DNA of 46,868 nucleotides. Source: Akkermansia muciniphila. Its GTDB lineage: Bacteria; Verrucomicrobiota; Verrucomicrobiia; Verrucomicrobiales; Akkermansiaceae. The notes under the pieces are model-generated. The model did no database searches. It was given only the letters and a program-made list of their open reading frames with translations, and was not told the origin of the DNA. Location: positions 1 through 46,868 of the forward strand of contig CAMDLP010000022.1 of the NCBI GenBank assembly GCA_945901795.1, in the 5' to 3' direction. This document shows positions 14,274-30,545 of this stretch, one piece after another (position 1 is the first letter of the stretch; each line of letters begins with the position of its first letter). Made by a program: the position numbers and the translations under genes.

Positions 14274-17200
14274 TCATCGTTGAAATCCCTCAGGTTCTCT
14301 CCTCTGTCTCAATCGGCCCCTGTATGGAGGTGCTTCTTCCCTTTCTGCGGATTTCGGAATCGTGAATTCAAGGGTGGGCACCAGCGATCTTCCGTAGGTG
14401 TCGAGAAGCGTGTCATTATCGCCATGTTTCACGTCGGAAACCTTGTAGATCGGGCCACTGCGTGCTCCTTGCCCGCCGGCACCCGGTTTGCGGAAAAAGG
14501 CATTCATTTCATCGAGATTAAACGGTCGGGAGCCACGCCGGCCGAAGACCGCGGTCTGGTTGCCGCTTTCATCCACGGCGCGGTCACGGTCGAGGCCCCG
14601 GGAGATCGAGACTGCGGCACCCTCGGTCGGGTAGGTGGCGATGAGTTTCGGCTCAGGCTTGGGTGAAAAGCCCATGTGGCCGGGCACGTTTTCCGGTGAG
14701 ATCAGTTGTAGGATACGCATACCATTATGGCCATCGGCAACGAGCGCATACATCGAGGCGTTCACCGAACCGACTTGCACATCGCGCGCATCCGTTAGTT
14801 TTCCGCCGGCGGTGAAATGCTTGAGGACGTGCGGCTTCTTCGGATTTCTCACGTCGATGATCGCGAGACCATCCGAGCCGTTGGCGACATAGAGATAAGT
14901 CCTAGCCGCATAAAGCCCCCCAGCATTTCCCAACGAAACGGACGCACCGGAAACCAGGATGGGTTTCGCGGGATTGGAAACGTCGAAGACTTTCACGCCA
15001 TCCGCATCGGTGACAAAGCAGTAATGCCATTGCACGGTGGATTGACGGGCGTCACGCAGGCCGGGGCCTGAATATCCGCCGGCGAAGGTTGGAGATATAG
15101 GGTTGGAAGCATCGACAACCGCCAGTCCCCGAGCGGTGGTGATGTAGAGCCACTGCCCGGCCATCCAGGCATGACGCGCGCCGTCCAGCGCACCGTTGGG
15201 ATTGAATGTGGCAGTCCGCCTGATGAAATTGTTTGCCGGATTTCCATCCAACATTGTCGCCACATCCACCACGATCAGCCCTTCCTCGAGATCGGTCACG
15301 AAAGCGTAACCATGATAGGCGGCGATCGGTGTTTCCTCGTTCTGGGGCAGTCGGTTGCGGTTGGGATCGTTGATCAGAGTGCTCGGTAGAGCGACGGAGG
15401 TGGCGTTGGCAGTTTTGATAAACGTATCCTGCCCTGAGGGGGCGACCGGGGAGGTGACGATGCGCTCGGAGAAATTCTTGTTATCGATGTTGGCAATATC
15501 GAAGATGCCAAATCCGTTTTTCCCTAGAGCGGCATAGAGATATTCACCACGCAATTGCAAGTCGGGCACGCCGCCCTTGGCATGATGGTGGGAGCCGGTT
15601 TTCAGAATCGATTTCTTAGCAAGGTGCTCTTTGTAGTTGTCCGGGTAAGCGAATTGATGCAGGTGACTGCCGATCGCTGCCTGCGGCTCGGTGCGCTCGG
15701 TCCAGGCGACACCGTGCAGCCCGTGATCATCGGTCCCGACATAGCCGAATCTTCCGAAAAAGTTGACGGTGCCCGTGCCGAATCCGAGGAGCTGCGTCAT
15801 GATCGCATTGTTGTCATTGGCTTCCGAGACGTGGCAGTCCGTGCAGTTTTTCGTGGTGCCGACGCCGCTGGTGGTGTGCGCGAAGTGGGGGTTGAAGGCC
15901 TGGCCGGAATATCCCTCGGCTGAGACGGTTTGCTGTTGGGTATAGAACCATTCGCGGTTAGCCCCTTGGGAGCCGACCACCATGGCGCTGGACGAACGCA
16001 ATACGGCCATTCGGTTTCCTTTGACCGTGCTGTCCTTGCCAAGCATGAAGACATCATCGCGCACCACCTGGGGATTGTACGAGCTGAAATTCCGGGAGGT
16101 GGTCCCTTCAAACTTGTTAGCAGCCATTTTAGAGTTCGCCTCCATGGGGATATGGCAGCCGAAACAACTCGTCGCCCATGACGTATGACAGGTCTGACAA
16201 TCCATTTCGTCGTTGCTATGGGCGAGTTCCTTACCGCATTTCTGCGGATCATCGGGGACGGCTCCCCAGGTCTTTCCGTCGCGCTTCAAGGTTTTTGCGT
16301 AGGCGCTCATGATATTGTAGTGCTCGGAGCCGGGAGTGACCGTATCGAGAGTCTGCGGCACTTCCCACTGGAGTTCTTTCTCCATCGATGACTGTTGCAT
16401 CAGCCGCTTGCCATCCGCGCTCCAGGTGAAACGAGGGCCAAACGGGGTGTTGCTTTCCCGCAGATTGATGGGTTTCACGTTTCCTTCCTTTGAAAGGGTG
16501 CCGCCCTTGCCGGAAGTGACGAGGGTGGTGTGTTTACTAACTGTTCCATGGCAATCCACACAGGTGATCGCGGTCGCCGCCCGTGGCTCGACATGCAGCA
16601 AACCGTTGCCGTGCGAGTCGTTGAGGAAATGACAATCCACACACTGCATCCCGCGCGCGAGGTGGATGTCTTTGAGATGCACGGCCTTCTTGAATTTGTC
16701 TTGGTCGTCGTGGGAAATCTTCTCATCTTTCAAGGTCAGCAAATTTCCTTCGCGGTCTTTCTTAAACACGCCGCGGAACACCCAGCCGTGGCCGTGATAG
16801 TCGGCAAACTGGGTGTCTTTCAACTTGGGATTCAACTCGGCGGTTTTCTCCAGGAAATCGACATCGCCCCACAAGCCCCGCGCGGCCGCCGCTTCGGGAT
16901 TTTTGCGTAGCGATTTCACCATGTCCTCGTCACTGGGATTCCGCTGTTCCTTGGGATACATGAGCTCCGCGTCCGATTCCTGATCCCACCACGTGTATCC
17001 AAGATAGGGATTCACGAACAGATTTCCCTGATGCATGTGACACGTCATGCACTGGCTGGATGGGATGCTGCGAGTGAACTTGTGGGCGATGGGATGGCCT
17101 TTTTCCTTCTTGGAAATCATCGGATCCGGGTTGAATGACAGACCCTGGTTTCCATAGGCACTATACCAACCGGAATTCGAGGGAGAGCGGTCGTTCGCAT

Positions 17201-18167
17201 AGACAACGTGGCATGCCGTGCATCCGCTGGAACGGTAATCACCCGGGCGGTCGTTCGACCCGAAGAAGTCCAGCAACGGATCATGCAGTCGTGTCTTGTG
17301 CGCGCCGATGATGACTGGATCGACCCTTGATAATGTGCCAAGCCCGCGTTCTCCCAAGCGGCGTAGTGGCCTGCCCGGCGGATCGAAAGGATCGGGGTTG
17401 CCGAGTTCTCCCAGTTTGGTTCCGCCTTTTTCAAAGATCCGGAAAATGTTGCCGGGTTGCGCGCCGTTGAAGCGCGGCAGTGGAAATATCTCCTGCACAA
17501 TGCCCATGGTTCGCTGCATTTCCGGCGTGACCTTGATCGGGCTTTGTAGAGCCAGTGGCACACCGTTAGCACCGTAGGCCTGGCCGAATATCGAATCTTT
17601 AACCGGGTAAGCTCCGTTGTTGTAGGCCGCCGCGCCCCACAGCATCGCGCCATGTCGCATCATGCTGTGATTCACGTGATCGACGGACTCTGCATGGCAA
17701 TCACCGCAGGTTTTCTTGGCAACGCGCAGGTCACCCGGATTCACGAACTGGATGAACTCCGGAGATTCATGGTTGAGCAACACATCACTGGCGCTTGGGT
17801 TTGCGGAGCTTTCAAAGAAAACGGGATTGCGCGGTGCCGGGTGAGCCTGGCGCATCGTCAGGCCCGGAGTGGGATCACCTCCGTGGCAGTCCGTGCAGCC
17901 GAGGCGGACATATTCACTTCCATGCGGATCTTGCGAGTTCTCATGACAGTCGATGCAGCCACGACTTTTCCGCATCGCCGCCGCTTTGGATTGATCCACC
18001 TTGTTGGCTTTTGGAATGGCCACACCGGTGTCTGAAGCAGACTCAGTTGCGGCGATAGGCGGACCGAAAATACTTCCGTTTCCCTTTGCCGGATTCTGGG
18101 AATGAACTGACACCGTCAATCCGCTGGTGACGAGCGCGCAGGCGAAATGGATCGTGAGTCTGTTCAT
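14274..18167 (-). CDS. Decahaem c-type cytochrome fused to an LVIVD beta-propeller
   Basis: A 1297-residue exported protein from ATG 18165-18167; an N-terminal extension to 18494 overlaps the porin gene and is rejected. A signal peptide (IHFACALVTSGLTVSVHSQ) precedes ten CXXCH haem motifs at about residues 71, 91, 154, 316, 373, 509, 536, 657, 668 and 775 (for example CIDCH, CTACH, CMTCH, CFGCH). From about 865 to 1190 run six LVIVD-type repeats such as GFGIFDIANI, GLIVVDVATM, GLAVVDASNP, GVKVFDVSNP and GLAIIDVRNP, which should fold as a propeller. The C-terminal 100 residues are charged and low in structure. With a 2-bp gap to the porin gene and the tetrahaem gene before it, it may sit in or on the outer membrane as the terminal or surface electron carrier. 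The substrate is unknown. Confidence 0.85.
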   Translation of the reverse strand: MNRLTIHFACALVTSGLTVSVHSQNPAKGNGSIFGPPIAATESASDTGVAIPKANKVDQSKAAAMRKSRGCIDCHENSQDPHGSEYVRLGCTDCHGGDPTPGLTMRQAHPAPRNPVFFESSANPSASDVLLNHESPEFIQFVNPGDLRVAKKTCGDCHAESVDHVNHSMMRHGAMLWGAAAYNNGAYPVKDSIFGQAYGANGVPLALQSPIKVTPEMQRTMGIVQEIFPLPRFNGAQPGNIFRIFEKGGTKLGELGNPDPFDPPGRPLRRLGERGLGTLSRVDPVIIGAHKTRLHDPLLDFFGSNDRPGDYRSSGCTACHVVYANDRSPSNSGWYSAYGNQGLSFNPDPMISKKEKGHPIAHKFTRSIPSSQCMTCHMHQGNLFVNPYLGYTWWDQESDAELMYPKEQRNPSDEDMVKSLRKNPEAAAARGLWGDVDFLEKTAELNPKLKDTQFADYHGHGWVFRGVFKKDREGNLLTLKDEKISHDDQDKFKKAVHLKDIHLARGMQCVDCHFLNDSHGNGLLHVEPRAATAITCVDCHGTVSKHTTLVTSGKGGTLSKEGNVKPINLRESNTPFGPRFTWSADGKRLMQQSSMEKELQWEVPQTLDTVTPGSEHYNIMSAYAKTLKRDGKTWGAVPDDPQKCGKELAHSNDEMDCQTCHTSWATSCFGCHIPMEANSKMAANKFEGTTSRNFSSYNPQVVRDDVFMLGKDSTVKGNRMAVLRSSSAMVVGSQGANREWFYTQQQTVSAEGYSGQAFNPHFAHTTSGVGTTKNCTDCHVSEANDNNAIMTQLLGFGTGTVNFFGRFGYVGTDDHGLHGVAWTERTEPQAAIGSHLHQFAYPDNYKEHLAKKSILKTGSHHHAKGGVPDLQLRGEYLYAALGKNGFGIFDIANIDNKNFSERIVTSPVAPSGQDTFIKTANATSVALPSTLINDPNRNRLPQNEETPIAAYHGYAFVTDLEEGLIVVDVATMLDGNPANNFIRRTATFNPNGALDGARHAWMAGQWLYITTARGLAVVDASNPISPTFAGGYSGPGLRDARQSTVQWHYCFVTDADGVKVFDVSNPAKPILVSGASVSLGNAGGLYAARTYLYVANGSDGLAIIDVRNPKKPHVLKHFTAGGKLTDARDVQVGSVNASMYALVADGHNGMRILQLISPENVPGHMGFSPKPEPKLIATYPTEGAAVSISRGLDRDRAVDESGNQTAVFGRRGSRPFNLDEMNAFFRKPGAGGQGARSGPIYKVSDVKHGDNDTLLDTYGRSLVPTLEFTIPKSAEREEAPPYRGRLRQRREPEGFQR

Positions 18168-18169
18168 TG

Positions 18170-20629
18170 TCAGAAAGTCATGGTTGCCGAGAGGAAACTG
18201 CTGTAGAGGACATCCGCCACATCTTGGGGATTCGCAGGGGTGTAACCGGGCACGCCCGTTGATGACGTGCTGTAGATGTCTTTGAAACCTGCGCCAGGAA
18301 ACAACAGGCCAAGCCCGACGTTGAGCTTCAGGTTGTCGGTGAGGAAAGGTCTGTACTCCACGCCAAAGCTGAGATCCCAGCCGATCTCCCGACTGATATC
18401 GTCCGTGACGAGCGCGGTGGCGATGGAATTCGTATTCATGAACAAAAGATAATTCAGGTTGGCGAACGCCCGCAAGCGAGGTGTCAGCTCCCATTCCTCG
18501 CCGAGTCCGGCGATGAAGATGCCCGGATTGACAAAATTGGACTGCCCCAAGAACTTGTTGGAACTCAGCTCGGGAATCAGGCTCAGTCGCTGCTTCAGGG
18601 CGACCGCTGTCCCGCCCAGATTCATTCCCTGCCTCTGCCAGTAGCTGAAGGGTCCGATGAAGTTCGGATTGTCCACGATGGCGTCCCAGCCTGTCGCGGT
18701 GTCGTCGGTCGCATTGTCGTCGCCCGATGCACAGAACAAGGTGAATTTGTGGCGCATCCAGTCAGAATCCACGGAGAGTTCCATCGCCGCCATCCACGCG
18801 CTGATGTCAACCGAGCGTCCGGCGACGCCATTCAAATCATCCTGGCCAAATACATGATAGAGCGAATGGCTGATGTTCGCGCGACCGATGTGCCCCTCGC
18901 CACTCCAGCCGAGGTAATAGGCATCGAGATCGTGGGGAACCACGGTGCCAATGGGTGACGGACGGACGATGTTGCCCGCGCTGTCATAAACTAGACCGCT
19001 GTCGCTGCCATTGTCCCAGTTGGCCAGAATACTGAATTGGGCCGTGTAGCCTTCCGTGAGGAAATCCTGGCAATAGACGTTGGCGACGAAAACGTTCTGG
19101 TTGCGGTCATCGAAAGTATTCAGCTCTGAAAAGGACTCTTTTTCGAAGAGATCGAATAAGGCCAGATTATACTGGATGCGGTTCTTCTGCAGGTTTCCGA
19201 AAAGTCGATAGCCCCAATTCGAATCAAAAAACACATGGCCGCGGAAATCCGCGTTGAACGGCTGAGTGCCGAGCCGCATCGCCGCGAAGTCGTAGTTCTC
19301 GGATAGATCCAGCAGGTGCGTTTCAAAAAAGAACTGCTGCAACCCGAAACGGTTCTTGAAACGCTCGGTTGAGTTCGAATTTCTCAGATCCCCGTCGGCA
19401 GGATCAAGCAGTGGATCGAGGAATCCGTCGAGATCTCCGGGGTTCCCAATACCCGAATTGCTCGGTGGGTTGGCCGTCGACTGGTCAAGCCCGCGCGGGT
19501 CCGGCGAGACGACGTTCGCCTCGTAACCGGAAACATAGTTGGTGTTGAAAACGGGCTGAATGCGGAACAACCACTCCACGGGCTTGAATGAAGTCTCTCC
19601 CTTGAATAGATCGAAAATCAGGCTGGTGTTGGTATTGATGACGGTCTGATCGCCTTTGCCGTAAAATTCCGAACTGTCAGGCCGCGCCGTGCTGACGCCC
19701 GAGGGGATTGGAATATCATGAACCTCAATCTCAGTGATGTTTTGCAAGGTCAGCGATGCGAAAATGTCCTGCCCGATGACCGGAAGGTCCCCCTTGAGCA
19801 CACTCTGATAGTAGGGGTGCCAAAAGTAAGGTGTCTTTCTCTCGTAGGGTGTTTCGGCGACACTGTCGTCCAAGTAACGATTCCACACTCCCGTCGCAAT
19901 GCGGTAGCGGTCCTCGACAGCAGTGGTGTTCGGTGGAATGTCGGAATGTTCGTGGTGGCCCGCGTGCCAGTTCTCGGAAATGTGTTCCTCGTAGCGGACA
20001 CCTCTTCTCGGTAGCACAAACGGCTCTGCGATGTCCGGTTCGTAACGATCCCACGCATCCGGTCCTTGCACCAGTTCGGCCTCGATTCGACGCTGCTCCA
20101 GTCGCTGGCGCGGCAATTGCAAATCATCGGGGATGGTCGGAATGAACTTGGGGAATGCTTTCGGAACGCCCGCGTCTCGCCTGAAAAACCGGTCATCGTT
20201 GAAACCAGGATCGTCTTTGAAGAATCGGCCACTGCCGGGAAATTTCTCCGCTTGGCCGGTGATAGACCCGCGCTCTCCTGGCTTCGCCATGTTTTGTCCG
20301 GGATTCATTCCCATTCCAGGATCGGGGTTGAATTGAGCAGGTGGCAGCAAGTAGTCTTCAGTGATGGTGGTCTCCTCCTTGAACTCAAAAACAGGCAAGC
20401 GTGGTTCCGGCGCGGGATTCAAGCTCGGATCGGGAGAGAACGAGTCGGGACTCGACGGCATGGCATCGGCCAACTTCTGCTGTGCAGTGAGACGATCCGG
20501 ACGCTCCTCGCCGTTCGCCACATCCCATTCCGGAGTCCGCTCATGCGGCGGATGATAACAGGTCGTCAATAGGACGCACGAAGAGGCGAAGAAAAGACGA
20601 CGGCCTGTGTTGAAAAATCCGCCACTCAT
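18170..20629 (-). CDS. Outer-membrane beta-barrel (porin-like) protein of the cytochrome cluster
   Basis: An 819-residue exported protein from ATG 20627-20629. The N-terminus (RRLFFASSCVLLTTC) is a signal sequence with a possible but imperfect lipobox. A Pro-, Asp- and Arg-rich periplasmic region of about 200 residues follows. The rest alternates polar and hydrophobic residues in beta-hairpin pattern (FEFKEETTITEDYLLPP early; WLFRIQPVFNTNYVSGY, AMRLGTQPFNADFRGHVFFD, LNVGLGLLFPGAGF later) and ends in SATMTF, the C-terminal Phe typical of outer-membrane barrels. No haem motifs. Lying between two multihaem cytochrome genes, it could sheathe a cytochrome across the outer membrane as MtrB or Geobacter Omb porins do. 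I see no clear MtrB signature, so this is an analogy, not a family call. Confidence 0.75.
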   Translation of the reverse strand: MSGGFFNTGRRLFFASSCVLLTTCYHPPHERTPEWDVANGEERPDRLTAQQKLADAMPSSPDSFSPDPSLNPAPEPRLPVFEFKEETTITEDYLLPPAQFNPDPGMGMNPGQNMAKPGERGSITGQAEKFPGSGRFFKDDPGFNDDRFFRRDAGVPKAFPKFIPTIPDDLQLPRQRLEQRRIEAELVQGPDAWDRYEPDIAEPFVLPRRGVRYEEHISENWHAGHHEHSDIPPNTTAVEDRYRIATGVWNRYLDDSVAETPYERKTPYFWHPYYQSVLKGDLPVIGQDIFASLTLQNITEIEVHDIPIPSGVSTARPDSSEFYGKGDQTVINTNTSLIFDLFKGETSFKPVEWLFRIQPVFNTNYVSGYEANVVSPDPRGLDQSTANPPSNSGIGNPGDLDGFLDPLLDPADGDLRNSNSTERFKNRFGLQQFFFETHLLDLSENYDFAAMRLGTQPFNADFRGHVFFDSNWGYRLFGNLQKNRIQYNLALFDLFEKESFSELNTFDDRNQNVFVANVYCQDFLTEGYTAQFSILANWDNGSDSGLVYDSAGNIVRPSPIGTVVPHDLDAYYLGWSGEGHIGRANISHSLYHVFGQDDLNGVAGRSVDISAWMAAMELSVDSDWMRHKFTLFCASGDDNATDDTATGWDAIVDNPNFIGPFSYWQRQGMNLGGTAVALKQRLSLIPELSSNKFLGQSNFVNPGIFIAGLGEEWELTPRLRAFANLNYLLFMNTNSIATALVTDDISREIGWDLSFGVEYRPFLTDNLKLNVGLGLLFPGAGFKDIYSTSSTGVPGYTPANPQDVADVLYSSFLSATMTF

Positions 20630-20656
20630 GGGTTCAATACATCCATGGATTGTGGC

Positions 20657-21799
20657 TCACCGGCCCTCCTCCGCTTCGAGTTGTGATTTTGCCACCCGGT
20701 CGAGCCTTCTAACGAACTCGTCAGCAGTGGCGGCGTCAAAGCTCTCCGGCGGCTTTGCGGCATCGAACAGCTCGTCCAGAGGATTCTTCGGGATCACCCG
20801 CTGCTGCCCGGATGCGACAAACGACTGATTCAGGCGATCGATCCCCAGTGTCAGGCGCTCGGCATAATAACCGACGGACCACCAGCGATAGTCCAAAGCA
20901 ACCGCGCTGAACGCATCAGCTTGAAATGGAGCTCGATTGCCAGTCAGCTTGGACAAGATCGCGCGACTTTGTTCCTGACTCATCGGTGCGCCGGAAATCC
21001 GCTTGGCATAGTCATCCGCCGAGCGGACCAGATCCTTGGCCGAGTCATCCCAGCCGGCACCCGTTGCTTTCAACAAGGCCCTGATGGCCTCGATTTCGGC
21101 GGTCCTGCGTTCACCGGGTTCTCGCCGGGCCTGCGCTGCCGTTTCGCGCAACGCCACGGCTTGTCCCACCAGCCATGTTTGGGCACTGGAAAACCCCTTC
21201 TCTTCGCGCCAATGCTTGGGCTCGGCGACCAGCAAGCCATCCAGTTCGAAGGTCAATGCCGGGTGTTTTGCATTTTCAAGCTCGTCGCTCAGATTCTGGT
21301 GACAGGCGACGCAACTGTTCGCCCGTTGGTAGGCGCTGCCCAATGGCCGCATGCCAAGCCGTGCAAGCGCGTCTTTCGGGTAATCCGGGCGGGTATGTGA
21401 AAGCAGCCAGTTTTCCGCCGGACCATGGCAACTGGCGCAGGAAACACCGCTTTCCACGGCGTGTCCTTCCAAAGGAGCCGCGAGTCCGAACGGAGCGACA
21501 TGGAGCATCGGGGAGTGGCAGATCGTGCAACTTTTCGATTCTGCGGCGTTTTCGATCCCGAGCTGCCTGGCCATCGCTTTGGAGCGGCCGTTGGTCAGAG
21601 TGGCGGAGGCGTCGGCGTGAGGATCAAAGCGCTTGAAAATGGTGTAGGCTCCCCGATCAAGCCCCGCGCCGCCATGGCAACCGCTGGTCATGCAAGTCTG
21701 GGAGCCAAGCACCTTTGCCGTGTCCGATGGCTCCCCTGCCCCAACGTGCGGGAGGCAGACCGAGATCACAACAGTTGAAAATAGTTGAACCTTCCTCAT
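20657..21799 (-). CDS. Tetrahaem c-type cytochrome (cytochrome c554-like)
   Basis: A 380-residue periplasmic protein from ATG 21797-21799 with a signal peptide (LFSTVVISVCLPHVGAG). Three canonical haem motifs, CTICH (91-95), CASCH (121-125) and CVACH (163-167), follow an unusual CX4CH site, CMTSGCH (36-42), making four. The C-terminal half (about 200-380) is a charged helical region without cysteines (TAEIEAIRALLKATGAGWDD), which in c554-type proteins packs beside the haems or mediates binding. First gene of the minus-strand operon, 27 bp before the porin gene. It probably shuttles electrons through the periplasm between the inner-membrane modules and the porin-decahaem pair. It could instead be a nitrogen- or sulfur-compound enzyme, as c554 relatives are diverse. 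Confidence 0.82.
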   Translation of the reverse strand: MRKVQLFSTVVISVCLPHVGAGEPSDTAKVLGSQTCMTSGCHGGAGLDRGAYTIFKRFDPHADASATLTNGRSKAMARQLGIENAAESKSCTICHSPMLHVAPFGLAAPLEGHAVESGVSCASCHGPAENWLLSHTRPDYPKDALARLGMRPLGSAYQRANSCVACHQNLSDELENAKHPALTFELDGLLVAEPKHWREEKGFSSAQTWLVGQAVALRETAAQARREPGERRTAEIEAIRALLKATGAGWDDSAKDLVRSADDYAKRISGAPMSQEQSRAILSKLTGNRAPFQADAFSAVALDYRWWSVGYYAERLTLGIDRLNQSFVASGQQRVIPKNPLDELFDAAKPPESFDAATADEFVRRLDRVAKSQLEAEEGR

Positions 21800-22096
21800 T
21801 CAAGTTGTTTTCTAAAATCTCAAGGGGTGATGCGGCAAGCTAATATAGACGCCACTCAGGCAGATGAGTTTTATTCCGCATCAACAAAAGTCGTATTCAC
21901 TTGAATTTCAATCACTTCAGACAGAAACTTCGGAGTCAAGCACGCTGTGCTCGTCGATGCGCTCCGGGCCCTCCGAGGCATGGAGTGTCACCACCTCGGT
22001 GGCTTCCGCACGCCCCCTAGAATAAATCACGGAAACCCTCGTTCCCGGCTTGTGCCGGGGCCGGCGTGTCAATAGTTTGACTCATGGAGCTGATTG

Positions 22097-22118
22097 GTTT
22101 GAAATGTCCATTTCAAAC
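22097..22118. promoter_or_regulatory. Perfect palindrome, candidate operator of the plus operon
   Basis: Arms GTTTGAAATG (22097-22106) and CATTTCAAAC (22109-22118) are exact reverse complements with a 2-bp spacer, about 100 bp upstream of the reductase gene. The size and symmetry suit a dimeric regulator. It does not match the CRP/FNR consensus TTGAT-N4-ATCAA well, although TTTGA and TCAAA half-sites are present. The regulator is unknown. Confidence 0.55.
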
Positions 22119-22184
22119 AGGCGACGCAAACGCGCAGCCCGGTCAAGCAGCGCTAGTCAAATTTTAACATTTTATCGGGAAATA

Positions 22185-22200
22185 GGATTTTCAAAAATCC
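22185..22200. promoter_or_regulatory. 16-bp palindrome just upstream of the reductase gene
   Basis: GGATTTT-CA-AAAATCC, a perfect inverted repeat, ends 18 bp before the GTG start at 22219. It may be a second operator or an mRNA leader hairpin. It lies directly after the AT-rich stretch AATTTTAACATTTTATC (22160-22176), which could hold the promoter. Confidence 0.4.
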
Positions 22201-22218
22201 AGCCACAACATCAAGAAT

Positions 22219-23517
22219 GTGAATTACGAGATCTTGCTACGTTCGGCGCTTTCGAGTCCCCTCCTTACGATCGGGCTGACCGGCGGCGTCATGATGTTAG
22301 GTTACGTCGCCACCCAATGGTGGGCGGTTACCGCCAGATATCGTTTCGAGGCGAAACGCAACCGGCTCGAGCTCGACGCGCTGGGGAAAAAAATTGAGAT
22401 CCTGAATCGCAAGGCGCAGGAGGCACCCGAATCCGCCTGGAACGGATACCGGAAATTCACCGTTTCCAGAAAAGTGGAAGAGTGTGAGGACACCTACTCG
22501 TTCTACCTCACCCCGCACAACGGCAGGCCGCTGCCACCGTTCAAACCCGGACAATACTTGACTTTCGAACTGCATCCTCCGAATGCGGACAAACCTCTGG
22601 TCCGTTGTTATTCGCTCTCGGATGGCGCTCTGTGTGACGACCATTACCGGGTCACGATCAAGCGTGCCTTGCCGCCGGCGAACGAACCCGGCATCCCCCC
22701 GGGGATTGTTTCCAGCTACTTCAGCGACCAGGTGAAGGAAGGTGACATTCTCAACGTGAAATCTCCAAGTGGCCGGTTCTTTCTCGATGTCGAGGTCGAT
22801 CGCCCCGTGGTCCTCATCTCCGGCGGCATCGGCATCACGCCGATGCTGGCGATCGCCCGCCAGTTGACCCATGCCAAAGACAACAGGGAAATCTACTTTT
22901 TCTTCGGCTGCCGCAACAGGGTGGACCACATGTTCCGCGACGAGGTCATCGAGTTGCAAAAAGCCAATCCGAACATGCGGCTGCACATCTGTTACAGCCG
23001 TCCGCTAGACAAGGACGTCCAGGGCGAGGCCTATCACCACGAGGGTCGTGTCACGATTGACCTGATGAAGCGGATTCTGCCTTCAAGCAATTACGAATAC
23101 TACCTGTGCGGTCCCGGGCCGTTCATGGACACCCTCGTCCACGGCCTGTATGACTGGGGTGTGCCGAAGAAGGATGTGAAGTTCGAAGCCTTTGGCCCGG
23201 CCACCGTCAAGAGCGGGCCGAAAGAGCCCACGCCCCAATCCGAAACGGACCACCAAGCGGTGATCCCGATCGAGTTCGCCCGTTCCGGAAAAACAGTGCC
23301 GTGGGATTCCGGGATGGAGAACCTCCTTGAATTTGCGGAGAAAAACGGAATCACCACCATTGAAGGGGGTTGTCGCGCGGGCGGTTGCGGGTCCTGCCTG
23401 GTGGCGATCCTGCAAGGCGAAGTCGAATACATTCTGGAACCAGGTGCCGCACCGGAAGAAGGCTCCTGCCTCAGCTGCATCTGCCGGCCAAAAGGGAAAT
23501 TGGTGATCGATGCCTAA
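22219..23517 (+). CDS. Membrane-anchored FAD/NAD(P)H oxidoreductase with a plant-type 2Fe-2S domain
   Basis: A 432-residue flavoprotein starting at GTG 22219. One N-terminal membrane helix (LLTIGLTGGVMMLGYVA, about 15-31) is followed by a coiled stretch. A ferredoxin-reductase core comes next, with FAD motif RCYSLSD (129-135), NAD(P)-binding GGIGITPML (202-210) and YLCGPGPFM (295-303). The C-terminal ferredoxin domain has cluster ligands C385-X4-C390-X2-C393 and probably C420. The layout resembles NqrF and phenol-hydroxylase-type reductases with the ferredoxin at the C-terminus. It should pass electrons from NAD(P)H one at a time to an acceptor, plausibly the 4Fe-4S protein encoded next. It overlaps that gene by 8 bp. 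The extra cysteines C417 and C422 near the cluster are unusual. No clear Shine-Dalgarno sequence. Confidence 0.85.
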   Translation: MNYEILLRSALSSPLLTIGLTGGVMMLGYVATQWWAVTARYRFEAKRNRLELDALGKKIEILNRKAQEAPESAWNGYRKFTVSRKVEECEDTYSFYLTPHNGRPLPPFKPGQYLTFELHPPNADKPLVRCYSLSDGALCDDHYRVTIKRALPPANEPGIPPGIVSSYFSDQVKEGDILNVKSPSGRFFLDVEVDRPVVLISGGIGITPMLAIARQLTHAKDNREIYFFFGCRNRVDHMFRDEVIELQKANPNMRLHICYSRPLDKDVQGEAYHHEGRVTIDLMKRILPSSNYEYYLCGPGPFMDTLVHGLYDWGVPKKDVKFEAFGPATVKSGPKEPTPQSETDHQAVIPIEFARSGKTVPWDSGMENLLEFAEKNGITTIEGGCRAGGCGSCLVAILQGEVEYILEPGAAPEEGSCLSCICRPKGKLVIDA

Positions 23518-25279
23518 CGCGCTTCATATGGCAAAATCCGACAACAATCTGGCAAGCATCACCCGCCAGGCGTCCCGCCCGAAGCGCTGGGATGATCCGC
23601 TGGATCCCGGGATGACCGATGCCACGCTGGACATGCTGATGGCAACGGAACCGTTCGCCAGCATGAACGTGAGCGCGTTTCCCGCCGCCACTCCGCTGCG
23701 CGAGATCTTGAGGGCGGACACGGCCGTGCGGGAGTTCGCCGCCGGAGAAATCGTCCTGCGCAAGGATGATTACGGAACCTCGGCCTTTCTGGTGCTGGAG
23801 GGCGAGGTCCAGGTGATCCTGCGTCCGGACATCGATCCCGAGCTACTGGGCCGCGCACCCAGTGTGAAAAAGAGCTTCATCGGGCGACTCGCCCAATTGT
23901 GGAACAACAACCCGGAACCGGAGGGATGGAGCAAAAAATCCCCACGCGCGAGCGACAACCTCAAAGGCTCCATCAACAAGGAACGTGGTTCCGTTTATTT
24001 GCAGGATTATCCGCAGATCGTTTCCGACGCGCAGACCGCCGCGCTGAAAAAGGGCCAGTTGTTCGGCGAGATTTCAGCGCTCAGCCGCATGCCGAGGACC
24101 GCCACCGTGGTGGCATCCACAGAAACGGCCCGTCTATTGGAATTCAGTTGGGAAGGGCTGCGGGACATCATGCGCTACGATTCCGCATTGAAAACGCAGG
24201 TCGATAAAATCTATCGGGAAAACTCCCTCAAGATTTTCCTAAGGAATCACCCACTCTTCAGCCACCTGGACGAGTCCGGCTATGTCCAATTGTGTGAAGA
24301 AGCCGAGCTGGAAAGTTTCGGCGAATACAACTGGTCCGGCGCCTACCTGAGGCTGGCGAAGGACGGTGACCCGGCGACCTCCGCGAACGAGCCCGTCATC
24401 GTGAGGGAGGGCGAATATAGCAATGGCATCTATATGATCAGGGCCGGATTCTGCCGGGTAAGCCAGAAATATGGCAATGGTGAGCGCACCTTGAACTACA
24501 TCGGGGCGGGCAGCGTGTTCGGTTATGAGGAAATCGCGAACCACTGGAAAAATCCCCGACAAGAGATGCACTCCCTGTACTCGCTTCGCTCGTTGGGATA
24601 CTCGCATCTGATCTTCATTCCAACGGCGTCGCTGGAAAAATACGCGAACCGAAGATTGTCGGAAGCGGATTTTCCGGCCAGTCCCGTGCCGAAAAACATG
24701 TCAAAGCCGGCGGACGAAAGTTCGGCGAACGACGGCACCGCGCCATCAGCCAGCCTGATGGAGTTCATGGCGGAGCATCGTTTCTTCAACGGCACCAAGT
24801 CGATGGTCATTGATATGGACCGCTGCACTCGTTGCGACGATTGCGTGCGCGCCTGCGCATCGACCCACGATGGCAATCCGCGCTTCCTGCGGCATGGACC
24901 GATGATCGACAATCTGATGATCGCGAACGCCTGCATGCACTGCGTGGACCCGGTGTGCATGATCGGTTGTCCGACCGGCGCCATTCACCGGACCAGCTTC
25001 GGCGGAGAAGTCGTGATCAATCCGGCCACCTGCATCGGATGCGGCACCTGTGCCGCGAATTGCCCGTATGATTCGATCCGCATGGTCGAGGTGAGATCAA
25101 GCCAAGGCGAGTTTCTGGTCGATGAAGAGTTCCAACCGATCCTGAAAGCGACCAAGTGCGACTTGTGCGTCGAGCAGACAAGCGGCCCGGCCTGTCAGAA
25201 CGCCTGCCCGCACGATGCCCTCAGCCGGACGGATTTAACCCATGTAACCTCCATCGCACAGTGGCTAAAAAGGAAATAG
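23510..25279 (+). CDS. Two cyclic-nucleotide-binding domains fused to a four-cluster 4Fe-4S protein
   Basis: A 589-residue soluble protein beginning inside the previous gene (ATGCCTAA junction). The first cyclic-nucleotide-binding domain starts with AAGEIVLRKDDYGTSAFLVL. It contains a roughly 55-residue insertion and has the phosphate-binding cassette FGEISALSRMPRTATV, whose Glu and Arg match nucleotide binders. A second, more divergent domain has VREGEYSNGIYMIRAGFCRV and GAGSVFGYEEI without the Arg. From about residue 425 come four 4Fe-4S sites like a DMSO-reductase B subunit: CTRCDDCVRAC, CMHCVDPVCMIGC, CIGCGTCAANC and CDLC...CQNAC. Electron transfer between the flavoprotein and the cytochrome b, gated or sensed by cAMP, is the natural reading. 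The combination is unusual, and the gating is inference. Confidence 0.85.
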   Translation: MPNALHMAKSDNNLASITRQASRPKRWDDPLDPGMTDATLDMLMATEPFASMNVSAFPAATPLREILRADTAVREFAAGEIVLRKDDYGTSAFLVLEGEVQVILRPDIDPELLGRAPSVKKSFIGRLAQLWNNNPEPEGWSKKSPRASDNLKGSINKERGSVYLQDYPQIVSDAQTAALKKGQLFGEISALSRMPRTATVVASTETARLLEFSWEGLRDIMRYDSALKTQVDKIYRENSLKIFLRNHPLFSHLDESGYVQLCEEAELESFGEYNWSGAYLRLAKDGDPATSANEPVIVREGEYSNGIYMIRAGFCRVSQKYGNGERTLNYIGAGSVFGYEEIANHWKNPRQEMHSLYSLRSLGYSHLIFIPTASLEKYANRRLSEADFPASPVPKNMSKPADESSANDGTAPSASLMEFMAEHRFFNGTKSMVIDMDRCTRCDDCVRACASTHDGNPRFLRHGPMIDNLMIANACMHCVDPVCMIGCPTGAIHRTSFGGEVVINPATCIGCGTCAANCPYDSIRMVEVRSSQGEFLVDEEFQPILKATKCDLCVEQTSGPACQNACPHDALSRTDLTHVTSIAQWLKRK

Positions 25280-26097
25280 AACTCATCCGCAGGAGGTTCG
25301 GTAGCGGGTTGATGACCACTCTGGCAGTCGTCGGATTGCTGCTGGCCTATATCAAATACGCGCCGTTGTATCCGCGCCACGCCTACCTGAGTGGCTGGGT
25401 GCTGTTCGCGGCGATGCTGTTCCTAACATTCTTCAACCTCCGCAAGCGGGTTCCTTTCCTGCGCCTCGGCAGTGCCAGCTTCTGGCTGCAACTGCATCTC
25501 TACGTGGGAATATTCTCGGGCGCGTTGTTTTTCGTGCACATCGGCGGGTCATGGCCCGCGGGGATATTTCATCAACTGCTCGCTTTGATCTACGTGGTGG
25601 TGTTCGTGACGGGAGTGCTCGGGCTATGGATCAGCCGCGCGTTTCCACGGATGCTCACGGTCGCCGGATATGAGACCCCGTTCGAGCGGATCCCCTACGC
25701 CCGGAGGAACCTGCGTGAAGAAGCCGAAGCGCTGGTATTGGCAGGCGTCGATGGCCAGACGTCACCCGTCATCGCGGAGTTTTATTCTAGAAAACTCGGG
25801 ATGTTTTTCACCAGACCGTACAACCGGTGGGCGCACCTTCGGCAGTCACGCGCTCCGCAGGCCGCACATGTCTCCCAGTTTGATGAGGTGCAAAGATATG
25901 CCAGGAGGGGCGAGGGTGAAATGCTTGACAAGCTGAGGGACCTCGTCGCCCGAAAGCACATGCTCGATTACCAGTATTCGCTGCAGTCCGCACTGCGGTT
26001 GTGGCTCTTCGCGCATATTCCGCTCAGCTATTCCCTGCTGATCTTCAGCGTACTGCATATCATCCTCGTCCATGCGTTTTCCGGATCCGTCTCATGA
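25261..26097 (+). CDS. Dihaem cytochrome b-type membrane subunit
   Basis: A 278-residue inner-membrane protein. GTG 25261 is taken as the start because it overlaps the previous stop by 19 bp and leaves a short basic N-terminus; ATG 25312 is an alternative. Five hydrophobic segments lie near residues 16-33, 44-59, 74-95, 103-124 and 246-271. Two of them carry the H-X13-H spacing of bis-histidine b haems: His79/His93 and His252/His266, a strong sign of two transmembrane haems. A soluble loop of about 115 residues (130-245) separates helices four and five. It would accept electrons from the 4Fe-4S protein or exchange them with quinone, and pass them to the periplasmic decahaem protein, whose gene overlaps it by ATGA. 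No named family recognised. Confidence 0.78.
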   Translation: MAKKEIELIRRRFGSGLMTTLAVVGLLLAYIKYAPLYPRHAYLSGWVLFAAMLFLTFFNLRKRVPFLRLGSASFWLQLHLYVGIFSGALFFVHIGGSWPAGIFHQLLALIYVVVFVTGVLGLWISRAFPRMLTVAGYETPFERIPYARRNLREEAEALVLAGVDGQTSPVIAEFYSRKLGMFFTRPYNRWAHLRQSRAPQAAHVSQFDEVQRYARRGEGEMLDKLRDLVARKHMLDYQYSLQSALRLWLFAHIPLSYSLLIFSVLHIILVHAFSGSVS

Positions 26098-27809
26098 AAG
26101 CCAGTCAACAGTCGCCGATATTTCCCTCGAAAGAGTATGTCCGCCCCAATCTGGATTGGGAGTGCGGGCATCTCTGCGAGGGTTGCCCATGCCGGATCGG
26201 GCCTACCCCCAAGGGCAAGTGCAGGGCGACCTATGAATGCACGCCCCGGTTAGAAGTAAAACCGGGAGAAGCAAAAGGACACTGGACTTGCACGCGCCCG
26301 CGAACCGGCGGTGGCAAGTGCGAGAACGGCCCGCTTCCGGACGGAACTTGCTGCAATGCAATCCCCAAATGCCAACCGCGCAGGACCCTTCGAGCCATCC
26401 GCAAGCGTGTCGTCGGGTTCACCATCATCGCCAGTTTTCTCATCCTGTTCGTAGGCGTCAGTCGCAATCTGCGGGATGAATTCACCAATCCGGGCCCTAT
26501 CTCCAGCGTTCACGCGAGTGCGACTTTCGCGGACATCCACACGAAGCAATCGGGTGGCGATACCAGCAGTTGCGCCGCTTGTCACGAGGGCGCAAGGCAT
26601 GTGGATTCTTGGCACTCCAAGGCATTCGATGCGTTCAAACACGGGCTGGCACCAGCCGAGTTGATCCAGAAAGGACCGCTCGCAAGCTCCGCGATGGATA
26701 CTAACTGCTTGTCCTGCCACGAGGGCAAAAAGTTCCACCAGCCGAACATGGCCGCCGAATTCGCCTGCCACGAATGCCATAAGGAACATCAAGGCAGCGG
26801 ATTCATGCCGGAGGTGAACAGCAGTTATTGCACGTCATGCCACGGTTCCGCCGAGCTCATGGCCGCCTCACGGGAAATAGGAGCGAAGACCGACCCGCAT
26901 GCCTTTTCTTCGTTCGCATCCGGCGCCGGCCTGAAGGTCCAATCGCGCGAACGGCCGGAAAAAGGCCATACCGACGTGATCACCGGGTTTCATCTCGATC
27001 ACCCCGAGTTCCGGCAGATCCGGGACGGCACCCGCGATGAAAACTCGCTGAAATTCAATCACGCGGTCCACCTGCGGACGGGGAAGATCCCGCGAACCCT
27101 GAATTGCAATGACTGCCACCAACGCGACAGCAGGGGCGAATACCAACAGCCGATCACCTACGAGAAACATTGCGTCGAATGCCATACCCTCCAGTTCGAT
27201 CCGGCCACACCCGCTGACAAAAACAAGCCCGGAATCTATCTGCCGCATGGCGATCCCTACTACGTCCGCGCGTTCCTGCGCAGCCTCAACATCCAATACG
27301 AGGAGTATGGCCGAAGCCATGAGGGCATCACGCGCCGGGATGAACTCAATGACTACGTAAAGGGAAAAAAAGTCGGCATCGAAAAGCTGTATGAAACCGG
27401 CGAAAACTTGGAGCGCTCGGTATTCTTCGCGGACATGAAGGGAGAGATCCCCGGTGGACTCCGGGCGCCATTCGCGGGTTGCGCGACGTGCCATGACGTG
27501 TCGGAACCCAAGAGTGACAATGCGACTCCTGCGATCAGGAAGGTCGCGGTCCCCGACCGGTGGATGACGCTTGGGAAATTCAATCACGACATGCACCAGA
27601 AAGGGCTGAGTTGCGTTGATTGCCACCAAGTGATGCACAGTGAACTCACCAGCGATCTCAACCTGCCGTCCATCAAGTCCTGCGTGGAGTGTCACAGTCC
27701 CAAGGGAGGAATTGATCACCGCTGCACAAGCTGCCACACCTATCACAATAGCCAGCCGGGCGGACCTTTCCCGAAATCCCCCGACGCATCAATCAAGCCC
27801 GGAAACTGA
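26094..27809 (+). CDS. Membrane-anchored decahaem cytochrome with a cysteine-rich cytoplasmic domain
   Basis: A 571-residue protein from ATG 26094, start overlapping the cytochrome b stop. Residues 1-100 contain 11 cysteines at 24, 28, 31, 33, 43, 49, 66, 76, 86, 87 and 93, in blocks CEGCPCRIGPTPKGKC, WTCTRPRTGGGKC and GPLPDGTCC. A basic stretch (RRTLRAIRKR) and one membrane helix (VVGFTIIASFLILFVGV, 107-123) follow, so the cysteine domain should be cytoplasmic and the rest periplasmic. Ten CXXCH motifs follow (CAACH, CLSCH, CHECH, CTSCH, CNDCH, CVECH, CATCH, CVDCH, CVECH, CTSCH). The cysteine domain could hold Fe-S clusters or zinc. This gives a possible route for electrons from cytoplasm to periplasm in one chain. 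No signal-peptide cleavage is expected. Confidence 0.85.
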   Translation: MKASQQSPIFPSKEYVRPNLDWECGHLCEGCPCRIGPTPKGKCRATYECTPRLEVKPGEAKGHWTCTRPRTGGGKCENGPLPDGTCCNAIPKCQPRRTLRAIRKRVVGFTIIASFLILFVGVSRNLRDEFTNPGPISSVHASATFADIHTKQSGGDTSSCAACHEGARHVDSWHSKAFDAFKHGLAPAELIQKGPLASSAMDTNCLSCHEGKKFHQPNMAAEFACHECHKEHQGSGFMPEVNSSYCTSCHGSAELMAASREIGAKTDPHAFSSFASGAGLKVQSRERPEKGHTDVITGFHLDHPEFRQIRDGTRDENSLKFNHAVHLRTGKIPRTLNCNDCHQRDSRGEYQQPITYEKHCVECHTLQFDPATPADKNKPGIYLPHGDPYYVRAFLRSLNIQYEEYGRSHEGITRRDELNDYVKGKKVGIEKLYETGENLERSVFFADMKGEIPGGLRAPFAGCATCHDVSEPKSDNATPAIRKVAVPDRWMTLGKFNHDMHQKGLSCVDCHQVMHSELTSDLNLPSIKSCVECHSPKGGIDHRCTSCHTYHNSQPGGPFPKSPDASIKPGN

Positions 27810-27869: not shown

Positions 27870-30545
27870 GTGACCACCGCCGAACAAAATCGCCTGGCTG
27901 AGCGCTCGACCGAGCCGGTCCCGCCGTGGCGGCGTTGGGGCACTTTCGTTTCCGACCGTGCGTGGGGCACGGTGCGGGAGGATTACAGTGAGGATGGCGA
28001 AGCCTGGGGTTTCTTTCCGCACGATCTCGCTCGCAGCAAGGCGTATCGCTGGGGCGAGGACGCCATCGCCGGCTGGTGCGACCGCTATCAACTTTTGGTT
28101 CTCGGCTGGGCGTTTTGGAACGGGCGCGATCCGATTTTGAAAGAACGGCTCTTCGGTCTCGTTCCGGACGAGGCGAACCACGGCGAGGACGTGAAGGAAT
28201 ACTATTTCCACCTCGACGCCACGCCGACGCATTCCTACTGCAAGTTCCTCTACAAATATCCGCAGGCAGAATTTCCCTATGCGCAACTCATCGCGGAGAA
28301 TCAGAAGCGTTCGCCGCAGGAACGTGAGTTCGAGTTGCTAGATACCGGCATCTTCGACGACGACCGCTACTTCGATATCTTCATCGAGTACGCGAAGGGC
28401 GCAGCGGACGACACTTGCATCCGCATCGAGATTTGCAACCGCGCGGCGGAGGCGGCGAGCCTCCATGTCATCCCGCAACTTTGGTTCCGCAACACCTGGG
28501 GATGGACGCCGCCGGGCAAACCCGCGCCCGCCATCACGCTTGGGAAAAATTCAGCCAGTCACTCCACGCTCGAAGTCGGAGAAGAGCACGTTGATTCGCT
28601 CGCGCATCTGCCGCATCGGTATGCGATGGGCGTGCTGGAATTCCACGGCCCACCGGGAGCGATGCCGTTGTTCACCGAGAACGAAACGAACTCTGAACGC
28701 GTCTTCGGCAAGGGGGGCAAGAGTCGCACGCCGTTCGTGAAAGATGCTTTTCATCGCAACATCATCGGCGGCGAGGCGTGCGTCAATCCTGCGAACACCG
28801 GCTCGAAGGCGGGGTTGCATTACGCGAAGCTGGAAGTTCCCGCGCACGGCTCGGTCGTGATGCGGTTCCGGCTAACGAATGAGAAACTCTCCGACCCGCT
28901 CGCGGAGGTGGACACGATCGTTTCGCAACGCCGCGCGGAAGCCGATGAGTTCTACAACGCGATTCATCCCGCGACCGCGAGCGCGGACGAGAAGCGCATC
29001 CAGCGCACCGCGCTTGCGGGCTTGCTGTGGACGAAACAGTTTTACCTGTTCAACGTCCATACGTGGCTCAAGGGCGACAACCCTAACTGGAAGCCGCCTG
29101 CGTCACGCAAGACCATCCGCAATTTCCACTGGCGGCACATCCACACGATGCGCGTAATGACGATGCCGGACAAATGGGAGTATCCGTGGTTCGCCGCGTG
29201 GGATCTGGCGTTCCAGACCGTGCCGCTCGCACTCGTTGACCCGGACTATGCGAAGGAGCAACTCTGGCTGCTGCTGTTCGAACAGTTCCAGCATCCGAGC
29301 GGGCAGATTCCCGCCTACGAATGGGAGTTTTCCGACTTGAATCCACCCGTCCACGCGTGGGCGGTGTGGCGGGTGTTCAACATGGATCGGATCCGTAGCG
29401 GAAAACCCGACCGGCTGTTCCTTGAGAAATGTTTCCACAAGCTGATGATGAATTTCGCTTGGTGGGTCAACAAGGTGGACGCCGAGGGCAACAATGTTTT
29501 CGAAGGCGGCTTCCTCGGCCTCGACAATATCACGCTGATCGACCGCAGTCTCAAATGCGCTTCCGGCGCGCAACTCCAGCAGTCCGACGCGACCGGTTGG
29601 ATGGGGATGTTCTGTTTGAACCTCATGCGCATCGCCCTCGAACTCGCGAAGGAGAACAAGGCTTACGAAAGTTTGGCGTTCAAGTTCTTCGAGCACTTCC
29701 TCTACATCGGCGCGGCGATGAAAGATCGCGGGGGCAAAGGTTACGAGCTTTGGGATGAGAAGGACGGATTCTTTTACGACGTGCTGGAATTTCCCGACGG
29801 CAGCTTCCACAAGTTCCGCGTGCGTTCGCTCGTCGGTTTGATCCCGCTGTTCGCCGTCGAGCGGTTGGAGGAGGACTGGATCAAGCCATTCCCGGAGTTC
29901 CACAAAAATTTCTGTTGGATCATGCGGAACCGCCCCGATCTCGTCGGACCGTGCGTGACCACGATGCAGGTGGACGGCCACACCACGCACGTCCTCGCCG
30001 TCATCGAGCCCGAACAGATGCGCCGCGTGCTGTCCTTCGTGTGGGATCCCGCCGAGTTCCGCAGCGACTATGGTCTTCGCTCGCTGTCGAAATTTCACGA
30101 ATCGCATCCGGTGCAATACGAGTCCAGCACCGTGCGTTACGAACCGGCGGAGGCGCTGGAGAAATTGAAGGGCGGCAATTCCAACTGGCGTGGCCCGGTC
30201 TGGTTGCCCACGAACTTCATGATGATCGAGTCGCTGCGCAAACTGCGCAAAGCCTACGGCGAATCCTTCAGTGTGCCCGCGAGCGATCCCGGGCAAGGCG
30301 AAGTGACGCTCGAAGAGATGGCGCGCGGGTTTTCCAACCGGCTCATCCAGATGTTCGGTCGCGACGCCCAACACCGCCGCGCCATCCACGGCGTGTCAGA
30401 AAAATTCCAGACCGATCCGCACTGGCGCGACCTGCCGCTCTTCCATGAATATTTCCACGGCGACACCGGCGAAGGCCTGGGCGCTTCGCACCAAACCGGC
30501 TGGACCGCGCTCGTGGCGTCGCTGATCGACGAGTGGCGGAAGTAG
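27870..30545 (+). CDS. GH63/MGH1-like glucosidase
   Basis: An 891-residue cytoplasmic protein from GTG 27870; the ATG at 27860 is out of frame. Family-like blocks include [20 protein letters not shown], then [14 protein letters not shown], then [13 protein letters not shown], all typical of the large bacterial glucosidase group related to GH63 and mannosylglycerate hydrolase. The C-terminal half should form an (alpha/alpha)6 barrel, with [14 protein letters not shown] and [18 protein letters not shown] as likely active-site segments. No signal peptide, so it probably acts on an internal glucoside such as a compatible solute or glycogen-derived oligosaccharide; the substrate is not evident. 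It follows the decahaem gene by 60 bp on the same strand but has no obvious link to electron transfer. It converges on the MscS-type gene, 10 bp apart. Confidence 0.82.

Follow-up and report, generated by a model that had tools for sequence, protein, structure and literature searches.

A verrucomicrobial multihaem gene cluster that looks like an undescribed version of a genome-predicted electron-transfer system

We analysed a divergent cluster of seven genes in a 46,868-nucleotide contig of a lake bacterium filed as Akkermansia muciniphila (CAMDLP010000022.1; this whole stretch is the window), and we find that the cluster looks like an undescribed version of a genome-predicted electron-transfer system. 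That system is PCC4, proposed in silico from the genomes of iron oxidisers (He, Barco, Emerson & Roden, 2017; PMC5566968). Judged by its sequence, the cluster appears to combine a PCC4-like core (genes C, D, E, F, and G) with an exchanged outer-membrane half (genes A and B), which would make it a variant rather than a plain member of PCC4, because the locus lacks the 5-haem protein and carries a different porin.

An earlier note had described positions 14274-27809 as two operons facing away from each other with 24 haem sites, and this description is confirmed: the seven open reading frames (ORFs) lie there on the strands described and hold 24 c-haem sites (23 CXXCH and one CX4CH). The minus strand carries, in order, C (20657-21799), a tetrahaem c-type cytochrome with three CXXCH, one CX4CH, and matches to the Pfam c554/c7 families; B (18170-20629), an outer-membrane beta-barrel by its C-terminal signal and a low-confidence model; and A (14274-18167), a c-type cytochrome with ten CXXCH and a C-terminal propeller (Pfam LVIVD, E-value 6e-25). 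On the plus strand follow D (22219-23517), a predicted NAD(P)H/FAD/2Fe-2S reductase (Pfam NAD_binding_1, FAD_binding_6, and Fer2) with an N-terminal hydrophobic stretch; E (23510-25279), with two cyclic-nucleotide-binding domains (Pfam cNMP_binding, E-value 1e-24) and four 4Fe-4S sites (Fer4 families including PF13247); F (25312-26097), a predicted dihaem transmembrane cytochrome b that has the motif WX3HX13H twice and so adds two likely b-haem sites to the 24 c-haem sites; and G (26094-27809), a decahaem c-type cytochrome (ten CXXCH, Pfam c7/c3) with a Cys-rich N-terminal domain and, by eye, one hydrophobic anchor. The plus-strand genes are separated by short gaps or overlap, and the two operons share a control region (21800-22218), assigned by position only. 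The start of A was corrected by homology to 18167 (1297 residues), with an upstream ATG rejected; the likely start codon of F is the ATG at position 25312, which follows AGGAGG; and G starts at 26094, overlapping the stop of F by 4 bases. The G+C content of the cluster is 57.2%, set in flanks of 61.6% and 61.0%.

The evidence for an exchanged outer half comes from the distribution of these genes. We scanned 84,980 species with an alignment of E, which gave at least 455 relatives (at least 589 stretches), and scored the core and partner genes by tblastn with the window proteins in the best 80 loci (labels beginning with L). The core recurs in most of these loci (61 with C, 76 with D, 79 with F, and 75 with G). 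The flanks hold different partners: A in 22 loci, B in 25, and a pentahaem cytochrome and a second barrel family in 19 each. None of the best 80 loci combines A with the pentahaem cytochrome or B with the second barrel. Where A lies in the flanks, B adjoins it in 21 of 22 loci, and the B-A pair is kept even where other genes are absent nearby (L026, L027, and L029). Planctomycetota, Alphaproteobacteria, and other groups carry the core C-D-E-F-G as well, accompanied by the pentahaem cytochrome and an unrelated barrel: comparison of B with this porin gave an hhalign probability of 1.4%. The last residue is F or Y in 15 of the 16 complete proteins of the second barrel family and L in the other. 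For A and the pentahaem cytochrome hhalign gave 59%, limited to one haem-pair region.

Which partner is present follows the type of E. Loci L056-L105 have the E type of the window, which is verrucomicrobial, and L106-L135 have the PCC4-like E type (the genome of L132 stands outside the genome counts for A and pentahaem). A was found in 48 of the 50 genomes of the first group (absent in L061 and L098), partly on another contig than E and with some matches being fragments, and in 3 of the 29 genomes of the second. The pentahaem cytochrome was found in 27 of these 29 (absent in L128 and L131) and in none of the 19 genomes of L056-L105 in which it was looked for, most of which have no A in the flanks. 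The same picture comes from a quick maximum-likelihood tree inferred from 81 E sequences, in which a branch with an SH-aLRT of 100 separates 51 rows (A in 49, neither partner in 2) from 30 rows (25 with pentahaem, counting L132 by its flank, 3 with both, and 2 with neither), and the A/pentahaem label changes once on the tree. As to the three genomes with both, the Opitutaceae L115 and L118 carry a second E (partial in L118, on the A-bearing contig in L115), and L125 has a single E, with its A broken into two pieces on separate contigs, which may reflect faulty binning. Two further Opitutaceae, L113 and L116, have the pentahaem type only and lack A. Because of these Opitutaceae, both those with pentahaem only and those with a second E, the partner follows the E type and not the phylum alone.

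We also searched a phylum sample of 288 genomes (labels beginning with G) for A and E. A matched in 32 genomes, of which 23 were dropped as matches to the LVIVD part only, leaving 9; E matched in 14, of which three with a divergent or partial E were dropped (G013, G166, and G257), leaving 11 with full-length E. Both occur in 6 genomes (hypergeometric P about 5e-8, uncorrected for kinship), and the sample's three further genomes from the window's genus yielded neither. In G126 the pentahaem cytochrome and its barrel stand beside the core; the surroundings of E in G155, G122, G075, and G121 showed core genes, among those ORFs that passed the filter, and none of A, B, the pentahaem cytochrome, and the second barrel. 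In relatives from another family only C lies apart, the other six genes running D-E-F-G-B-A on the opposite strand, and the division into A-B-C and D-E-F-G is therefore a trait of the window's own group (L056-L060). The arrangement is more than chance, with the haem motifs of A and G conserved and the same gene order met again in other genomes. The proposal that the two operons belong together is therefore borne out by their co-occurrence elsewhere, and the comparisons support the view that the seven genes form one system. Carriers among named strains are IMCC26134 (L090), Hwanghaeella grinnelliae, Planctomycetales bacterium ZRK34, and Kordiimonadales bacterium IMCC3096, and a Mariprofundus genome (L131) is among the relatives. 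In L103, titled Klebsiella pneumoniae, and in several environmental metagenome-assembled genomes titled Akkermansia muciniphila, E groups with other Verrucomicrobiota, and these are probably mislabelled bins.

The predicted cofactor sites of the core are strongly conserved. In D, the motifs RCYS and GxGxTP are kept in 75 of 75 sequences each and the 2Fe-2S cysteines in 74-75 of 74-75, and its best family-model matches are to NAD(P)H-consuming reductases, all below the cut-offs of those models. All sixteen cluster cysteines of E are conserved in 81 of 81 sequences. The first cNMP_binding domain of E has an intact phosphate-binding cassette (FGE and R195 in 81/81, T198 in 75/81), a motif that suggests nucleotide binding; by eye, the second domain has no cassette motif. 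E matches PF13247 with an E-value of 1e-8. Its PADLOC matches were rejected as trivial, reflecting the common nucleotide-binding fold. The E proteins of L046 (9642-11654) and L107 (9686-11701) have, by eye, an extra N-terminal FHA-like stretch.

In F, the residues of both haem motifs are invariant among the filled alignment rows (W110, H114, and H128 in 79/79; W283 and H287 in 78/78; H301 in 75/75), as are G153 and G156 (79/79); position 152 is T in the window and S in 69 of 79. F matched no Pfam family, the ferric reductase domain included (E-value up to 0.01), and no structure in the PDB. Because the haem histidines of F are invariant, the inner-membrane crossing is, on these sequence comparisons, well supported, and this part of the trans-envelope route claimed in the earlier note stands. 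Among 65 C loci, 45 have the three CXXCH plus one of the window, 18 have four CXXCH, and 2 have other counts; C reaches 17.7 bits against TIGR03508, whose cut-off is 192. Ten CXXCH are present in 68 of 72 G sequences (the four exceptions have 6 or 9), and G gave only weak matches to solved structures. The N-terminal region of G (26094-26400, plus strand), which has no Pfam match, contains eight cysteines conserved in 75 of 75 sequences, arranged as two similar tandem four-Cys units ahead of the membrane anchor; these units would be expected on the cytoplasmic side and may hold Fe-S clusters or zinc.

All ten CXXCH of A are kept in the 9 of 9 sequences compared, and A gives weak Pfam cytochrome c3/c7 matches. 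It has a local likeness to ExtM (E-value 5e-15 over 54 residues) at 54.8 bits, against a model cut-off of 800. A matched neither the OmcA/MtrC nor the DmsE-type decahaem models (TIGR03507/TIGR03508, E-value up to 0.01) and none of the solved structures; by eye, no lipobox was seen at its start. The structural model of its haem domain is unusable, with a mean predicted local distance difference test (pLDDT) score of 31. B matched no Pfam or NCBIfam model (E-value up to 0.01). The claim that this 819-residue protein is a barrel agrees with a model built from 26 sequences, which has low confidence (mean pLDDT 53, predicted template modelling score 0.53): after an N-terminal helix (5-23) and about 260 poorly defined residues, it places 18 long strands over residues 289-818, with some loops below pLDDT 50. 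Together with the C-terminal residue, F or Y in all 21 B relatives with a complete C-terminus, the model indicates that B is an outer-membrane barrel. The best structural matches of this model are to AlgE (Z 24.6, root-mean-square deviation 3.0 over 356 residues), followed by Occ/OprD porins; MtrB is absent from the 50 structural matches listed for B, which excludes nothing. The MtrB barrel has 26 strands. The modelled size of B is thus porin-like rather than MtrB-like, which is evidence, not proof, against an MtrB-type sheath with a cytochrome inside B.

We favour, at a probability of about 0.5, a PCC4-like system with an exchanged outer half, in which NAD(P)H would drive electrons outward to an outer-membrane-associated reductase (A) served by a porin (B). 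D would pass electrons from NAD(P)H through its own 2Fe-2S centre to the 4Fe-4S clusters of E, and E would pass them to F, at its haem on the cytoplasmic side. The remaining F haem would reduce the periplasmic decahaem protein G, from which electrons might travel through the tetrahaem protein C (fourteen haems in G and C together) to the ten haems of A. A would act as the terminal reductase at the outer membrane together with B, its substrate arriving through or at the mouth of the barrel, and a nucleotide bound to E would perhaps gate the flow. Flow from NAD(P)H to the outside is downhill in redox potential and runs along the membrane potential. Since such a line would leave out the quinone pool and conserve no energy, control on E would make sense. 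On another contig of the same genome we observed, by eye, a run of genes for alternative complex III and a haem-copper oxidase. The bacterium therefore probably respires oxygen, and the system is more likely a side line (for redox relief, oxyanion or metal reduction, or iron handling) than the main respiration.

Several points weigh against this proposal. The evidence is computational throughout; given the low confidence of the B model and the unusable model of the A haem domain, any contact between A and B is hypothetical; and nucleotide binding by E is read from motifs, one of its two domains having none by eye. In G013 and G166, B-A stands without C and D nearby, with divergent E-F-G genes elsewhere. 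The published PCC4 model also has the opposite direction, from an outside donor to quinone (PMC5566968). A more far-reaching version of the favoured proposal is a second-messenger-gated valve, in which the nucleotide on E would switch an NAD(P)H-powered, quinone-bypassing line resembling a split NADPH oxidase (NOX), and exchangeable outer modules (the pentahaem cytochrome with one porin, or the decahaem-LVIVD protein with an AlgE-like barrel) would set the acceptor in several phyla; we offer this as a tentative idea.

The outer membrane could instead be crossed by electrons, with A placed in or on the barrel B as a haem wire and reducing extracellular humics, Fe(III), or Mn(IV). Such conduits were proposed by the PCC authors (PMC5566968), and both the ten haems of A and the frequent pairing of B with A, including the isolated pairs, are consistent with one. 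An 18-strand AlgE/OprD-like barrel is, however, small for a cytochrome core, a point that a weak model does not make decisive, and there is no separate outer-surface cytochrome and, as seen by eye, no lipobox on A. We regard this outer part of the earlier trans-envelope claim as possible yet doubtful. The direction could also be inward: an outside donor such as Fe(II) or Mn(II) would give up electrons at the outer membrane, and these would reach the quinone pool by way of G and F, as in the published hypothesis and its iron-oxidiser context (PMC5566968); the Mariprofundus relative would fit this. The identity of D as an NAD(P)H reductase argues against it, since flow from Fe(II) to NAD+ needs an energy input that is not seen in the cluster. 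Most carriers among the best 80 loci, moreover, are not known to be iron oxidisers, and we consider inward flow unlikely.

The genes around the cluster bear on a further alternative, in which the line would serve iron uptake by reducing ferric or haem iron at the cell surface, helped by an HbpS-like protein. A gene for an HbpS-like protein, a possible accessory, lies in the window (36465-38033, minus strand; PF03928, E-value 8e-23), and its ORF cluster neighbours E in 29 of the best 80 loci. However, this neighbourhood is almost confined to the verrucomicrobial type (27 of the 29 loci), Pfam detects no HbpS domain in the L115 member, and the gene stands outside the operons, which leaves this explanation improbable in our view. 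A CHASE2 class III nucleotide cyclase (33938-35899, plus strand; Pfam CHASE2 and Guanylate_cyc) is another possible accessory. Class III cyclases occur in 15 of the best 80 E loci, 8 of them in one verrucomicrobial group (L062, L063, and L065-L070); a cyclase lies near E in 8 of 22 loci against 0.84 expected, the 22 having been chosen after the cyclase loci were known, and the association is suggestive only. Near the cyclase, an MscS-type channel with a C-terminal cyclic-nucleotide-binding domain (30556-32058, minus strand) is a second nucleotide-controlled protein. ResB- and CcsA-like cytochrome c assembly genes (8964-11977, minus strand; Pfam ResB and Cytochrom_C_asm) appear to be accessory. 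Directly downstream of G lies an MGH1/GH63-like glycoside hydrolase (27870-30545, plus strand), with a 46% homologue in the planctomycete locus L111, and contig C4 of the same genome encodes an octahaem c554-type protein with a C-terminal TPR-like part (L143, 7783-10083, minus strand).

Comparison with known systems separates the two halves of the cluster. As to the earlier note's concern that the homologues might be characterised as unrelated enzymes, we found no characterised homologue of the whole set, and the open-licence literature yielded nothing on LVIVD with multihaem proteins, on nucleotide-binding domains with Fe-S and multihaem cytochromes, or on multihaem proteins of Verrucomicrobiota or Opitutaceae. 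MtrCAB, MtoAB, and PioAB share with the window a porin and decahaem cytochromes, and differ in that no family model matches A or B, the low-confidence model of B has 18 strands, and the cluster contains no CymA-type quinol oxidase. Membership of MtrCAB was rejected by the family models, as the earlier note had anticipated in setting the two apart. The Pfam and NCBIfam matches included no OmbB, OmaB, or OmcB model, which says little about kinship, as these collections may contain none. The Geobacter ExtHIJKLMNOPQS systems (the Ext selenite/tellurite operon) comprise a porin, 4-, 5-, 10-, and 12-haem cytochromes, and a cytochrome b (PMC5877670, PMC6148476). A is locally like ExtM and the PCC4-type pentahaem cytochrome is like ExtKL, but A falls far below the ExtM cut-off, the L121 pentahaem protein reaches 56.1 bits against ExtKL where the cut-off is 250, and the inner-membrane part is the Rieske/cytochrome-bc-like ExtO/ExtP where the window has D-E-F. 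The PCC4-type pentahaem cytochrome also resembles the solved cytochrome c552 5ze8; a paper on cable bacteria places ExtKL in a pentahaem family and describes such proteins as structurally homologous to the T. tepidum cytochrome (PMC11976967).

In Verrucomicrobiota, clusters have been described in which the periplasmic cytochromes are octahaem proteins and the porins have 20 strands or more, with strain IMCC26134 among those named (PMC5615132; the same group has a paper on a humic lake, PMC6344600). They resemble the window in setting a porin beside a multihaem cytochrome, and IMCC26134 carries the window system. This strain has a separate cluster, L171 (8423-13271, plus strand), with a 6-haem and a 7-haem cytochrome and a 763-residue ORF near ResB/CcsA-like assembly genes. 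We rejected the idea that the window system is the published porin-octahaem cluster, as L171 fits better by the text description rather than by locus tags. For the inner membrane, the two-haem transmembrane protein of PCC4 has been likened to NOX/ferric reductases (PMC5566968). F shares with these two HX13H helices for two stacked haems and, through D, a partner FAD/NADPH half, so that the cluster would work like a split NOX; it differs in that F has no Pfam match, an Fe-S protein stands between the halves, and the electrons would go to a decahaem cytochrome.

The closest likeness is to PCC4 itself. As its authors describe it, PCC4 consists of a porin, periplasmic 4-, 5-, and 10-haem cytochromes, a pfam13247 protein, another redox gene, and an inner-membrane protein whose helices 3 and 5 bear WX3HX13H and whose helix 4 bears SGXXG; the system occurs in Alpha-, Gamma-, and Zetaproteobacteria and Planctomycetes, and in its Subgroup II the pfam13247 Fe-S gene lies upstream of that for the inner-membrane protein (PMC5566968). 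The words 'cyclic' and '4Fe-4S' are absent from the main text of that paper. The pentahaem-type loci fit PCC4 so closely that they appear to be PCC4, set against it by description and not by gene identifiers. Matched on residues, F of the window has WX3HX13H twice and (S/T)GXXG, with T for S; C and G correspond to the 4-haem and 10-haem cytochromes; and E, which matches PF13247, precedes F as in Subgroup II. The PCC4 redox gene lies upstream of the tetrahaem gene; D, a possible counterpart, adjoins C on the opposite strand. The window differs in its divergent operons, in having A instead of a 5-haem cytochrome (no pentahaem match in the window), and in B, which is unrelated to the pentahaem-type porin that we take to be the published PCC4 porin. 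The novelty claimed in the earlier note for the whole protein set thus holds for the outer-membrane pair, while the C-D-E-F-G half fits a system already published in silico. Our findings link this verrucomicrobial cluster to PCC4 as predicted from genomes, extend the PCC4-like picture by a probable entry point for NAD(P)H and an Fe-S protein with nucleotide-binding domains, and, given that named strains carry the system, make the use of an NAD(P)H-fed multihaem line testable. Overall, the same electron line through the inner membrane appears to be joined to either of two outer-membrane modules that are unrelated to each other.

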